A stretch of 39,574 bases of DNA. It comes from Desulfovibrio sp. JC010. GTDB taxonomy: Bacteria; Desulfobacterota; Desulfovibrionia; Desulfovibrionales; Desulfovibrionaceae. Below the pieces are notes generated by a model. It was given only the letters and a program-made list of their open reading frames with translations, ran no database searches and was not told where the DNA came from. Each line of letters starts with the position of its first letter. Within the stretch, counting starts at the first letter, position 1. Location of the stretch: assembly GCF_010470675.1 (NCBI RefSeq), contig NZ_VOIQ01000024.1, positions 1 through 39,574 on the forward strand, read 5' to 3'. Position numbers and translations under genes: made by a program. Below, one piece after another: positions 20,706-24,898 of the stretch.

Positions 20706-21629
20706 TTATAAAGGCATTACCGAGCCGGAATAAATCTCATGCTGCTCGCCATTATGGTCAACAACAAGACCGCCATCGGAACGCAAACCGCAGATAACAC
20801 CGCGTTCAACTCCTTCAGGACCGTCCACAATCTTCACTTCCTCACCGAACCAGACCAGACGGTCGGCCAGCTCGTAAAGAAAATCGTCGGTATTCTTCAT
20901 GGAGATGATCTGCTCGAAATTTCCCCTGAAATACTTAATCAACTCAACCCATGTTTCCAGCGGCCCCAGCTGCATGGAATCAGTATTGAGCATTCCGGCC
21001 GGAACAGCATGGTCAGCCCGCAGCAGCTCCCTCGCCGGGGCATAGGCCAGATTCAAGCCGATGCCGACCATGGTGGCATTCCCGCGTTCTTCAATGAGAA
21101 TACCCCCGGCCTTCTTGCCATCGATCAGAATATCGTTGGGCCACTTGAGCTGGGTTTCCACTCCCAGATCACGCAGGGCATTACAGGTCAGATAGCCTAC
21201 GATAAGGGGCAGAATCCGGTTCCAGACCGGACGTTCCTCACCGGGCTTTGCTTCCGGCAGCGCAGGCCACTTGATGGTTCCGTATACATTTCCGGGAGGC
21301 GAAATCCATTCGCGGCGCACCTGCCCGCGTCCGGTATTCTGCTCCACAGCCAGCACACTTCCCCATTCCGAAAGATCTTCAAGAGCATTGAGCCGCCATG
21401 CGACATCAAGACTGGATACACAGGAACCGCAAACAGCAACAGGAACCCCGGTCCGCGAACCGGATATCCATGTTGAATAGGTCCTGTATTCTGCATCTTC
21501 ACTGTTCCATGGACCGAAATTTTCAATATCCCGCGCCCAAAGCGGATGAGCCTGAAAAAGATTTTCCGGGGTTGTCTTGGGGAGAGGACTGGTTTCCTTA
21601 CCGTTAATAATGGTAATTCGAGTAATCAT
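20706..21629 (-). CDS. birA: Biotin--[acetyl-CoA-carboxylase] ligase (BirA family, no DNA-binding domain)
   Basis: Makes biotinyl-AMP and transfers biotin to a lysine of carrier proteins. The ligase core has GRGQVRREWISPPGN (biotin/AMP loop), LKWPNDILIDGKKAGGILIE and GIGLNL, followed by the small SH3-like C-terminal domain (VICGLRSDGGLVVDHNGE). It lacks the N-terminal helix-turn-helix of E. coli BirA and instead has about 60 residues of unknown type, so it should not repress biotin genes directly. ATG 21629 is preferred; a GTG two codons upstream is possible. The 307-residue length is slightly long for a monofunctional ligase. Confidence 0.88.
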   Translation of the reverse strand: MITRITIINGKETSPLPKTTPENLFQAHPLWARDIENFGPWNSEDAEYRTYSTWISGSRTGVPVAVCGSCVSSLDVAWRLNALEDLSEWGSVLAVEQNTGRGQVRREWISPPGNVYGTIKWPALPEAKPGEERPVWNRILPLIVGYLTCNALRDLGVETQLKWPNDILIDGKKAGGILIEERGNATMVGIGLNLAYAPARELLRADHAVPAGMLNTDSMQLGPLETWVELIKYFRGNFEQIISMKNTDDFLYELADRLVWFGEEVKIVDGPEGVERGVICGLRSDGGLVVDHNGEQHEIYSGSVMPL

Positions 21630-21743
21630 GCGCACTATCCCATGGTCAAAAGATTATTAACAAGGGAGAATCTGTTTTTATTAATACTTTAGCTTAATTA
21701 TATTCTTAACCAAAGCGCGCAAAATGTGCAACGTTATTCTTTC

Positions 21744-21868
21744 TCAACGGCTTATAAAGCACCATCTGCTGCGTTGCTGCGAATAATATTGAAACTCACG
21801 TATGTCTGGATACGCTTCGTTCCAATATTATCCTTGCGCCTTACATCTGGCACTTTCTAAGCCGTTGA
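21744..21868. repeat. 125-bp imperfect inverted repeat, MITE-like
   Basis: The two ends are TCAACGGCTTA (21744-21754) and TAAGCCGTTGA (21858-21868), and the match continues inward with few mismatches: AAAG, CCA, GATAATATTG-like and GTAT segments pair across almost the full length, leaving a small centre near 21800-21810. It contains no gene and abuts the stop codon of the following minus-strand gene. It is unrelated to the GCCTCCGGCGG repeat family. It could be a non-autonomous mobile element or a transcript-ending hairpin. Confidence 0.7.
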
Positions 21869-23002
21869 TTATTCTTTTTTAGAGGACTTGATTTCACGTA
21901 TCAAATCGATGAGTTCTTCTTCCACATCATCGGCTTCGGTCTGGTCAATGGCATCGGAGGAGCGGGAATCGCGGGAAATGGCAGCTGCGATCTTGGTTGA
22001 AATGGCGGCCAGAATTCTTTTCTTGGCCTCCTCCCCGGCAATTGCCAGCAGGATACCGAGCTTGTAATATCCAAGCTGCCGGAAAACCTGCTTCAATGTT
22101 CCGAGATCAACAAAGACTATATCTTCAACACCTTCAAGCTCTTCAATGGATTTGCGCTTGCGCTTCACTTCCCTGAAGAACTGCTCGCCCTTCTTTTCTA
22201 CCCACTTGGAAGTAGCATCCTTGTGCAGCATGCAGATATCTTCGGGAAAATCACCTACGCCGATTTTTTTGTAAATCATCTCCGGATCAGAATCGACCAG
22301 AGCGGAAAAATCATGAATATCAACAAAGTCGGACAAAAAGACCTTACCGCTGAATTTGTTGACATCTTCGGAAAGATTTTCGGCAATAGCCATAAAATCA
22401 TCGGGATTGGTGATGGTCAGATAAGATTGTGAGGCAATCTTGTTTACCGAGACCATGTTGAACCCAACCGCGGATTTTAAATGCCTATCTATTTCATGCT
22501 GTGAAGCATTAGTAATATCTGAGAATTCTTTGGACAATTCCTCAAGAGTAATGCCGATGGGAACATCCTCACCTTTGGGCGTAGTCTGAAGAATACGGTG
22601 TTTCATATGCAGCAGCCGACAGAAGGTCAGCCATGAGTTATCGCTGCGACTCTCAGAAATAGCACGGTCCGCACGGGCGAGACGTGAAGCCAGCACGCGG
22701 GTAAGATGAAATACTGTGGGATGACTTTTCTTAAGCAGCATCAGGATCAGCCGCGCAGTGAGCACCAGCACGGTACATTCAGACGCAGCCTCAGCCCCCG
22801 CCACCCTTTCACTACGCGAAATAATTGCCATTTCCCCGAACAGTTCGCCCGGGCCGAGGGTAGCAAGAATCTGCCTTTTACCCTTAATATTTTTGACAAT
22901 ATTAACGGAACCAGACTGAATCATGTAGGCAACATTACCCTTGTCGCCTTCTCTGAAAAGCACCTCGCCCTTCAAAAAAGTCTTGGATTGCGGCCTTCCC
23001 AT
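21869..23002 (-). CDS. Cyclic-nucleotide-binding domain protein with FliG C-terminal-like domain (paralogue 2)
   Basis: A 377-residue cytoplasmic protein. Residues about 8-112 form a cNMP-binding domain with an intact phosphate-binding cassette: GELFGEMAI and R66 in SRSERVAGA. Residues about 150-205 have the place and pattern of a Crp-type winged helix (ITLEELSKEF, then IDRHLKS, then SYLTITNPDDF). Residues about 222-275 look like a second small helix-turn-helix (SALVDSDPEMIYKKI, DFPEDI). The C-terminus (about 284-372) aligns without gaps to the FliG C-terminal domain (VEDIVFVDLGTLKQVF, LAIAGEEAKKRILAAIS). The start at 23002 is one base after the stop of the paralogous gene, so the two are co-translated. 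A longer frame to 23050 would overlap that gene. Confidence 0.8.
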   Translation of the reverse strand: MGRPQSKTFLKGEVLFREGDKGNVAYMIQSGSVNIVKNIKGKRQILATLGPGELFGEMAIISRSERVAGAEAASECTVLVLTARLILMLLKKSHPTVFHLTRVLASRLARADRAISESRSDNSWLTFCRLLHMKHRILQTTPKGEDVPIGITLEELSKEFSDITNASQHEIDRHLKSAVGFNMVSVNKIASQSYLTITNPDDFMAIAENLSEDVNKFSGKVFLSDFVDIHDFSALVDSDPEMIYKKIGVGDFPEDICMLHKDATSKWVEKKGEQFFREVKRKRKSIEELEGVEDIVFVDLGTLKQVFRQLGYYKLGILLAIAGEEAKKRILAAISTKIAAAISRDSRSSDAIDQTEADDVEEELIDLIREIKSSKKE

Positions 23003-23003
23003 C

Positions 23004-24179
23004 CTACTTGACCCCCTTGAGTTTACGTACACTATCAAGGAGTTCATCACAGCATTCCAGAACTTCGGAATCGTTGGGATCCCGGTCCGCAGGCGGCTCC
23101 CGCAACAGAATCTGGGCGACCTTTTTGCCTATATTACGCTTGAGTTTATCCCTGCCCTGCTGGTCAAGAGCAGAATAAAGCACTGAAATTTTGTAATAAT
23201 TAAATTCTTCAAGGGCCTTTTTGAGAGTTGGGTTATCAATAAAAATGATATCTTCAGCAGCTTCAAGATCTTCCAGAGCCTTACGAGGCCTGCGGAATTT
23301 TTTGAAAAAATTAGGTTCCTTATCCTTGCGCCATTCCATGGCTTTCTCACGGTTAAAAAAGAGCAGATTCTCAGGCATCTCCTCTTTGATAACCTTCTTA
23401 TAAATCTGCTCCGGAGTGCTGCCGGTCCGCTGTGCAAGGTCCGTAAAAGTCATGAAACTCATGCGCTGGTCAACATTGGCTCCGAGTTCACGCATCTGTT
23501 TATAGAGATTGCGCAGATTAGGCATGAACTGCTCGAAATTCTTAATCGTGATATATCTTTCGACAAAGGCACTTTTATCACCTTTTTTAACGCTCTTCAT
23601 ATCAATCAGCCGCAACTTGAAGACCGTTTCAAGGAAAGATTCAATTTCAAGATTTGAAAAAACAGCCAGATTTTTCACTGTCTCGGTGTAGGAATTAACC
23701 GACAACCCCATCTTATAATTCTCAATTGCCCGTTGTTTATCACGGGGAATATACGCAAATTCGCGGTAGGCAAGATCGAGAATGGTTGCGAGGGCGAGAA
23801 ATGAATCACTCTGCTCAGCACACCCGGCCTTCAGGTCAGTAGCTGCAACCCTTTTGGCCAACAGTTCCAGCATTTTCTTTACTGTTTCCGGTGATGCGGC
23901 AAGAAGCTTGTTCATCATCTCTTCTGTGAGCACCACCAGTTCGCAAAAACTCGAAGCTTCGGCACTCGCTGTGCGCTTCTGGTTGGCAAGCAGGGACATT
24001 TCCCCGAAGATATCCCCACGGCGCAAAGAAGCCATAACCGACTTTTTCTTGTCGATTCTCTTAAAAATATCCACAGTCCCAGATTTGATCATGTAAGCGA
24101 TTTTGCTTTCCTGACCTTCATGGAATATAACCTTACCTTTATGGTAGGTCCGTATGCTTGGCGCGGTCCGTACAATCAT
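23004..24179 (-). CDS. Cyclic-nucleotide-binding domain protein with FliG C-terminal-like domain (paralogue 1)
   Basis: A 391-residue paralogue of the next gene, with the same four-part plan. cNMP-binding domain about 8-115, with cassette GDIFGEMSLL and R69 in NQKRTASAEA. Central helical/winged-helix segment about 125-215. Second helix-turn-helix-like unit about 240-290 (DLAQRTGSTPEQIYKKVIKEEMP is in it). FliG_C-like segment about 300-388 (AEDIIFIDNPTLKKAL, 308-323). The charged pair of the FliG torque helix is only half kept (D315-N316). The ATG has no strong Shine-Dalgarno sequence. It is first of a two-gene unit; the TVP38-type gene upstream is on the same strand, 38 bases away, and may belong to it. 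Confidence 0.8.
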   Translation of the reverse strand: MIVRTAPSIRTYHKGKVIFHEGQESKIAYMIKSGTVDIFKRIDKKKSVMASLRRGDIFGEMSLLANQKRTASAEASSFCELVVLTEEMMNKLLAASPETVKKMLELLAKRVAATDLKAGCAEQSDSFLALATILDLAYREFAYIPRDKQRAIENYKMGLSVNSYTETVKNLAVFSNLEIESFLETVFKLRLIDMKSVKKGDKSAFVERYITIKNFEQFMPNLRNLYKQMRELGANVDQRMSFMTFTDLAQRTGSTPEQIYKKVIKEEMPENLLFFNREKAMEWRKDKEPNFFKKFRRPRKALEDLEAAEDIIFIDNPTLKKALEEFNYYKISVLYSALDQQGRDKLKRNIGKKVAQILLREPPADRDPNDSEVLECCDELLDSVRKLKGVK

Positions 24180-24217: not shown

Positions 24218-24898
24218 TTACACATTACGGTGCTTCTTAACAAGTCCCATAACCTTTTTAACAACAAGGGGAAACAGTCCCAGCAGCACAAAAGAAAAAA
24301 GCACACCCGGCTGCACTATTCCTGACAAAGAATCAATCCGGCCCAACTCCTTACCGGCATTAACATAAACCATGGTTCCGGGCAGCATACCCAGCTGCGA
24401 AACCCAATAAAAAGTCTTCAGTCGCATGGGGGTGAGCCCCATAACCAGATTAATGACTACAAAAGGAATGGCCGGAATAAGGCGCATGGTAAAAAGGTAA
24501 AACGGGCCTTCTTCCTCAATACCCCGGTTGACTTTTTCCAGACGGTCCCCGAATTTCTGCTGCACGTAATCCCTAAACAGATAGCGGGAAAAAAAACAGG
24601 CCAGAGTGGCACCGATGGTACTGGCAAATGAAATAATCAGCACCCCGACGGTGAAACCGAACAAGGCCCCTCCGGCCAGACCTAGCACTGTCGCTCCCGG
24701 AAGATTAACTCCTACAACAATTACATAGATCAGAAAAAAGGAAAAAACTGTTAAGAATGGATTTTGATCATAAAATACCTGAAACTCCTGCCGGGAATTT
24801 TTCAAATATTCGAGGGTCAGAAACCTGTCCAGATCAAAGACGAAAAAAAGAGCCGCCACAAGCACGAGAAACATGATGATGAGTATTTTGTTTTTCAT
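24218..24898 (-). CDS. TVP38/TMEM64 (VTT/DedA-related) membrane protein
   Basis: A 226-residue inner-membrane protein with about five to six hydrophobic segments: one at the N-terminus (about 4-22), then about 47-70, 75-110, 135-160, 165-185 and 195-217. The central VTT-type motif is visible as GGALFGFTVGVL..STIGATLACFFSRYLFRDYV and MRLIPAIPFVVINLVMGLTPMRLKTFYW. Related proteins act in lipid scrambling or membrane homeostasis, but the bacterial role is not settled. The ATG lacks a clear ribosome-binding site. It lies just upstream of the cNMP-FliG paralogues on the same strand. Confidence 0.85.
   Translation of the reverse strand: MKNKILIIMFLVLVAALFFVFDLDRFLTLEYLKNSRQEFQVFYDQNPFLTVFSFFLIYVIVVGVNLPGATVLGLAGGALFGFTVGVLIISFASTIGATLACFFSRYLFRDYVQQKFGDRLEKVNRGIEEEGPFYLFTMRLIPAIPFVVINLVMGLTPMRLKTFYWVSQLGMLPGTMVYVNAGKELGRIDSLSGIVQPGVLFSFVLLGLFPLVVKKVMGLVKKHRNV

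Follow-up and report, generated by a model that had tools for sequence, protein, structure and literature searches.

Cyclic-nucleotide receptors with a FliG_C-like domain and their linkage to a MotA/MotB stator in Desulfovibrio sp. JC010 and other bacteria

The window we investigated, a stretch of 39,574 nucleotides from Desulfovibrio sp. JC010 (contig NZ_VOIQ01000024.1), contains two adjacent genes, A and B, whose products join an N-terminal cyclic-nucleotide-binding (cNMP) domain to a C-terminal domain of the FliG_C type, the stator-contact domain of the flagellar rotor. The two genes are duplicates, within one genus, of a family that is linked to a motA-motB stator operon, and their function is therefore inferred from that family. 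The placement of a linked sister gene before a stator operon suggests direct signal control of the swimming motor. In our judgement there is about an even chance that the family is a cNMP-gated partner of a dedicated MotA/MotB stator and acts by rotor mimicry.

Domain architecture and predicted fold

The sequence-only reading of the window had described A and B as adjacent paralogues with an intact phosphate-binding cassette and a C-terminus resembling FliG_C, and on all of these points it holds. The ATG of gene B, at 23002, follows the stop codon of gene A with one base between them, and the two proteins are 29% identical. The set of family sequences numbers 76, of which 74 come from the survey described below and two from the window. 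Alignments A3 and A4 cover 66 of them (42 motAB-linked and 24 window-type tandem copies); left out were the linked sequences L029, L031, L047, L048, L049 and L076 and the pairs of L057 and L063, and the L007 pair was used only in alignments A1 and A2 and in the tree. PF00027 is found in all 66 members, the G-E of the cassette is kept in all of them, and its Arg in 63. The N-terminal domain would thus be a putative receptor for cAMP or cGMP, to judge from its sequence.

Three lines support the FliG_C assignment: PF01706, whose cut-off gene B passes, the family profile, and the predicted fold. Because cNMP domains took up the results of a fold search with the full-length protein, which was uninformative on the C-terminus, the C-terminus was folded alone; the fold predicted for it is that of FliG_C, contrary to the outcome that would have refuted the sequence-only reading. 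The Pfam matches over the members, the family profile and this C-terminal fold together rule out chance similarity. When the family was compared by hhalign with the single FliG sequence of the genome, the probability was only 33.6% (E 4e-4).

The family shares the C-terminal FliG_C (PF01706) with FliG but is not a FliG: it is fused to a cNMP receptor, shows no FliG_M and no separate FliG_N, and falls below the cut-off of TIGR00207 (226.7 bits, against 14.4 for gene B and 21.3 for the motAB-linked member P0003). For genes A and B, the complete Pfam listings contain no FliG_M match at E<=1, nor is FliG_M among the best 25 of the 64 Pfam families listed for the 66 members. FliG_N matches are weak, with 21 of these members matched and a best E-value of 8e-4, and the weak match in gene B coincides with the FliG_C segment. 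As FliG_N and FliG_M were not found, we rule out that the family is a second kind of FliG incorporated in the C-ring.

Linkage to motA and motB

The genome of the window (4.39 Mb) encodes a third member of the family (C4:117424-118566), 34% identical to gene A. The stop codon of this third member shares 4 bases with the beginning of a MotA gene; a MotB gene, with plug and OmpA domains, comes next. The same genome has a normal FliG, with fliF and fliH as neighbours identified by eye, five MotA-like genes, and three class III nucleotidyl cyclases. On the same contig a 367-residue reading frame (L014 709-1812), beside a glutamine synthetase identified by eye, overlaps a sub-threshold FliG_C match of 17.3 bits.

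In a survey of the order (199 genomes, with taxon labels in which f stands for family and g for genus) members were found in 48 genomes, all within family f1. Each of these genomes has one member immediately before motA, in the same orientation. The stop codon of the member overlaps the nearest motA start by 4 bases in 36 genomes and by one base in 11, and a gap of 3 bases separates them in one; the linked form is probably translationally coupled to motA. A motB gene follows the linked motA in 47 of the 48. The sole linked operon in which motB was not detectable (L077 4181-5698, genome G102) has a ferredoxin-like reading frame after motA, which may reflect rearrangement or faulty assembly.

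The linked MotA is a distinct subtype. Its matches at E<=1e-60 occur in 48 of the 199 genomes, exactly those that carry the family. Among 20 of the 91 family-less f1 genomes, seven have any MotA (E<=1e-20), and none exceeds 38% identity. Pairwise identities of the family protein and its linked MotA are correlated (r 0.94, 42 gene pairs), but we give this no weight, because shared descent predicts it. FliG is present in all 48 family-bearing genomes, whereas 19 genomes have no FliG match at E<=1e-30, and not one of these carries the family (P 0.004; within f1, P 0.03). This rules out a spread of the family among non-flagellated species of the order, the outcome that had been named as counting against a motor role. 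The link to the flagellar motor proposed by the sequence-only reading thus stands for the stator genes motA and motB, but not for rotor genes. Its overall interpretation is likewise supported in part, and the window copies are genus-restricted duplicates in an unrelated neighbourhood.

Relatives outside the order

A protein search of plasmid records returned four and then eight Burkholderiaceae records, including a near-identical pair from Caballeronia SBC1 and SBC2. All eight proteins are matched by almost the entire family profile (E 4e-57 to 1.4e-48), and the C-terminal profile alone matches them at E 1.4e-13 to 9e-12 (for a database size of 5000). In every record the family gene, motA and motB follow one another in this order on one strand. 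The linked MotA of the window's genome (P0004) gives no match at 1e-20 to the Burkholderiaceae MotA, which is therefore not of the Desulfovibrionaceae subtype; because of this, the pairing of the family with motA is either ancient or has arisen more than once. Directly upstream of the three genes on a Paraburkholderia plasmid lies a gene for a methyl-accepting chemotaxis protein with a dCache sensor (L142 5604-7403).

Within the phylum, the full-length members outside f1 among the matches listed belong to family f11 (three genomes, which are also the three that sample its class). Their FliG_C scores 46 bits, and a plasmid search with an f11 protein gave no match. The f11 loci L088 1501-2715 and L087 1099-2313 have, by eye, a histidine kinase and a GGDEF response regulator as neighbours. 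A 407-residue frame from another family of the phylum (G285:C48:13599-14420) matches the cNMP and middle parts and not FliG_C, and is possibly a relative of the form that preceded the fusion.

Proposed mechanism and alternatives

In the mechanism we propose, binding of cAMP or cGMP to the N-terminal domain would change the shape of the protein; the FliG_C domain would then engage the cytoplasmic face of the MotA ring, replacing the real rotor or lying beside it, and this engagement would set whether the linked stator can drive the flagellum. Both the docking on MotA and the gating we infer. Loss of the positioning Arg, described below, would fit an enabler, whereas the analogy with MotI and YcgR would fit a brake.

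Contact positions are given in E. coli numbering, in which we take PomA R88 to be the equivalent of MotA R90; the numbers K264 and R297, like part of the mapping of FliG onto the family, are assumed to be correct. As described in PMC7564593, the contact between MotA R90 and FliG D289 positions the stator, and that between MotA E98 and FliG R281 transmits torque. The linked MotA retains the E98 equivalent in 48 of 48 sequences and has Lys or Arg two positions after the R90 site in 47. All 22 other MotA proteins compared (four from the window's genome and 18 from seven family-less genomes, with L131, a duplicate of the linked MotA, dropped) have Arg or Lys at the R90 site and Glu at the E98 site. 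On the side of the family, the R281 equivalent is Lys and the D289 equivalent is acidic in 64 of 66 members each, and the D288 equivalent is acidic in 40 of the 42 linked copies. To judge from these alignments, the linked copies retain part of the stator-facing charge pattern, and both partners differ from the usual pair.

Several observations weigh against rotor mimicry. Arg or Lys stands at the R90 site in none of the 48 linked MotA proteins. Unlike FliG, the family has lost the K264 equivalent in all 66 members and carries Asp at the R297 equivalent in 39 of the 42 linked copies, and therefore it does not present the FliG surface. An acidic D288 equivalent is found in no more than four of the 24 window-type copies, which, on the same alignments, appear to have drifted further from the stator-facing pattern than the linked copies. 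The FliG_C match of gene A (19.9 bits) stays below the Pfam cut-off of 23.3, as does that of the Paraburkholderia protein of L142 (15.3 bits), and Foldseek E-values for the isolated C-terminus of gene B are weak, the best being 0.012. The Burkholderiaceae genes do not overlap, and the change from R281 to Lys was not seen in the alignment of their members. In the two f11 loci read, no motA was found within about 1.5 kb of the gene, and the neighbours of the window pair are not flagellar genes.

How the protein and its stator work together can be read in other ways. Instead of acting as a brake, the protein may be an adaptor that recruits or positions a stator type without the positioning Arg when the messenger is high. 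The difference at the R90 site between linked and other MotA proteins, the kept charges of the torque pair E98-R281, and a one-to-one co-inheritance in the sample that suits an obligate partner all favor this enabling role; however, the Lys or Arg two positions on might itself stand in for R90, and to our knowledge a lone FliG_C cannot stay in the C-ring unless FliG_N and FliG_M are there as well. We consider the enabler somewhat unlikely. A more general possibility, doubtful though worth stating, is that the linked MotAB is a separate engine whose MotA ring engages the soluble, cNMP-switched FliG_C and not the flagellar C-ring, the protein serving either as an idle clutch plate by which the stator is put out of action or as what moves in a rotary device of its own. 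In the specific version in which the linked MotAB turns or pulls the cNMP-FliG_C protein for other work, one can point to a MotA group of its own, set apart by a long branch (1.02 changes per column, support 0.68) and with altered FliG-facing charges, and to an operon with its own FliG_C partner; MotAB-like motors with other tasks are known. Yet FliG accompanies the family throughout the order, MotB has the plug and OmpA domains, and the linked MotA is closest to flagellar PomA both among solved chains and among NCBIfam models (below that model's cut-off). We regard such a self-contained unit as very improbable. An improbable alternative is a CRP-type transcription factor for stator or flagellar genes, in which FliG_C is merely a protein-interaction module. 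The family profile does align with CAP past the cNMP domain (profile 10-195), the model has a helix-helix-helix-strand-strand segment there, three fold-search rows align 180-203 residues to CRP/FNR-type proteins (rmsd 11.6-13 Å), and weak helix-turn-helix (HTH) matches occur (HTH_17 in f11 proteins, E 0.014; HTH_Crp_2 in gene A, E 0.1). However, none of the 12 members whose complete Pfam listings were read has a DNA-binding family above its cut-off, and such matches are weak over the 66 members (among the best 25 of 64 families listed). Searched by itself against the PDB, the middle region retrieves no CRP chain at E<=1 and no significant relative (best E 0.089). The recognition helix of CAP reads Arg-Glu...Arg; at its place the family reads S-Q-x-E-I-D, with residue 170 acidic in 66 of 66, so that in this comparison its residues appear not to be CRP-like. 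A plain regulator, moreover, has no need of FliG_C.

For the window pair alone, an unlikely but distinct explanation is that it has left motor work and become a cNMP-responsive scaffold tied to its neighbours, which encode VTT, biotin ligase-like and PEP synthase-like proteins. Consistent with this, the neighbourhood (with a polyA-polymerase-like gene as a further constant neighbour) is the same in all 14 same-genus loci, L051-L064, and in L007; the stems of clades A and B in the family tree are long (0.98 and 0.76), the D288-equivalent acid is lost in 20 of 24 copies, and one genome has lost the pair. On the other side, FliG_C with the Lys and Asp/Glu contact positions is retained in 24 of 24 window-type copies, and the constant neighbourhood may reflect vertical descent alone.

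Descent and neighbourhood of the window pair

Genes A and B each form one clade (support 100/100 and 100/99). In the 199-genome sample the pair occurs only in g1, the genus of the window, where it is intact in 14 of 15 genomes. The remaining genome, G156, keeps the VTT and biotin ligase genes (L062, G156:C2:295000-306000), and the remnant of the pair there is a match of 71 positions with two stops. The pair also occurs in L007, a close relative labelled Desulfovibrionaceae, Thermodesulfobacteriota. A short match in L008, from a one-protein scan of genome contigs, was taken as spurious. By the reading we prefer, rotor mimicry, the target of the pair would be a stator or its sister proteins, but this is less certain than for the linked form, because no flagellar genes adjoin the pair and one stator-facing acidic residue has been lost in most copies.

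Coordinates of genes A and B, their domains, and two flanking genes in the window
Feature	Position	Strand	Evidence and remarks
Gene A (P0002, 391 aa)	23004..24179	-	cNMP-binding domain, CRP-like middle, FliG_C-like C-terminus; clade tandemA in family tree
Gene A cNMP-binding domain, residues 10-95	23895..24152	-	PF00027 74.2 bits (cut-off 27.5); cassette conserved in family
Gene A FliG_C domain, residues 308-387	23019..23258	-	PF01706 below cut-off; family profile; fold of paralogue B
Gene B (P0001 minus first 16 residues, 377 aa)	21869..23002	-	Architecture as gene A; clade tandemB
Gene B cNMP-binding domain, residues 7-92	22727..22984	-	PF00027 well above cut-off
Gene B FliG_C domain, residues 288-372	21887..22141	-	PF01706 30.0 bits (cut-off 23.3)
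VTT-domain membrane protein, upstream of pair	24218..24898	-	PF09335; context only
Biotin protein ligase-like gene, downstream of pair	20706..21635	-	PF03099; context only

Just 3' of gene B the window contains a strong imperfect palindrome (21735-21870; single-strand fold z -6.9). Counting the copy in the window, it is found eight times in the genome, with 77-100% identity over at least 103 bases, and one further match spans 23 bases; the palindrome is a dispersed palindromic repeat or a small mobile element. A beta-lactamase-fold protein (PF00144, 25035-27080) lies between the VTT and polyA-polymerase-like genes of the window. In L007 and the 14 same-genus loci these two genes are close neighbours, and such a protein was not among the matches listed there.

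Comparison with known systems

Among the literature titles and abstract openings listed, with subscription journals mostly outside this coverage, no cNMP-FliG_C protein was found. Passages of a 2026 review present cAMP as acting on motility via transcription (PMC13432727). If our proposal is correct, the family would let cAMP or cGMP act on motor output directly and fast, because a cNMP receptor is combined with the stator-contact domain of the rotor and tied to one stator subtype, in two phyla. It would also supply a soluble FliG_C probe for the recognition of the rotor by MotA. Since stator, partner and changed contact residues form one module, stator choice would be testable by simple gene removals.

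CRP/FNR regulators and Bd1971, a cAMP-binding EAL enzyme, differ from the family in their output: its last domain is FliG_C, and not a DNA-binding or EAL domain. The idea of uncoupling rotor and stator is shared with the EpsE clutch of B. subtilis, which does so according to the review (PMC13432727). EpsE, which resembles glycosyltransferases, binds FliG (PMC3000366), whereas the family carries FliG_C itself and is linked to motA.

In function, the nearest kind is that of the second-messenger motor effectors (PMC8203827, PMC12713396). In passages of PMC8203827, YcgR, MotI, FlgZ and MotL respond to c-di-GMP by means of PilZ domains, and motL comes after motA and motB. The likeness lies in the proposed role, that of a soluble receptor for a nucleotide messenger at the MotA-FliG interface. 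The complete Pfam listings show no PilZ in gene A or gene B (E<=1) or in P0003 (E<=0.01). The family is not a member of the YcgR-type effectors, because receptor, messenger class and output domain differ: theirs is a PilZ domain that answers to c-di-GMP, whereas the family combines a cNMP domain of the CRP/PKA type with the FliG_C of a rotor.
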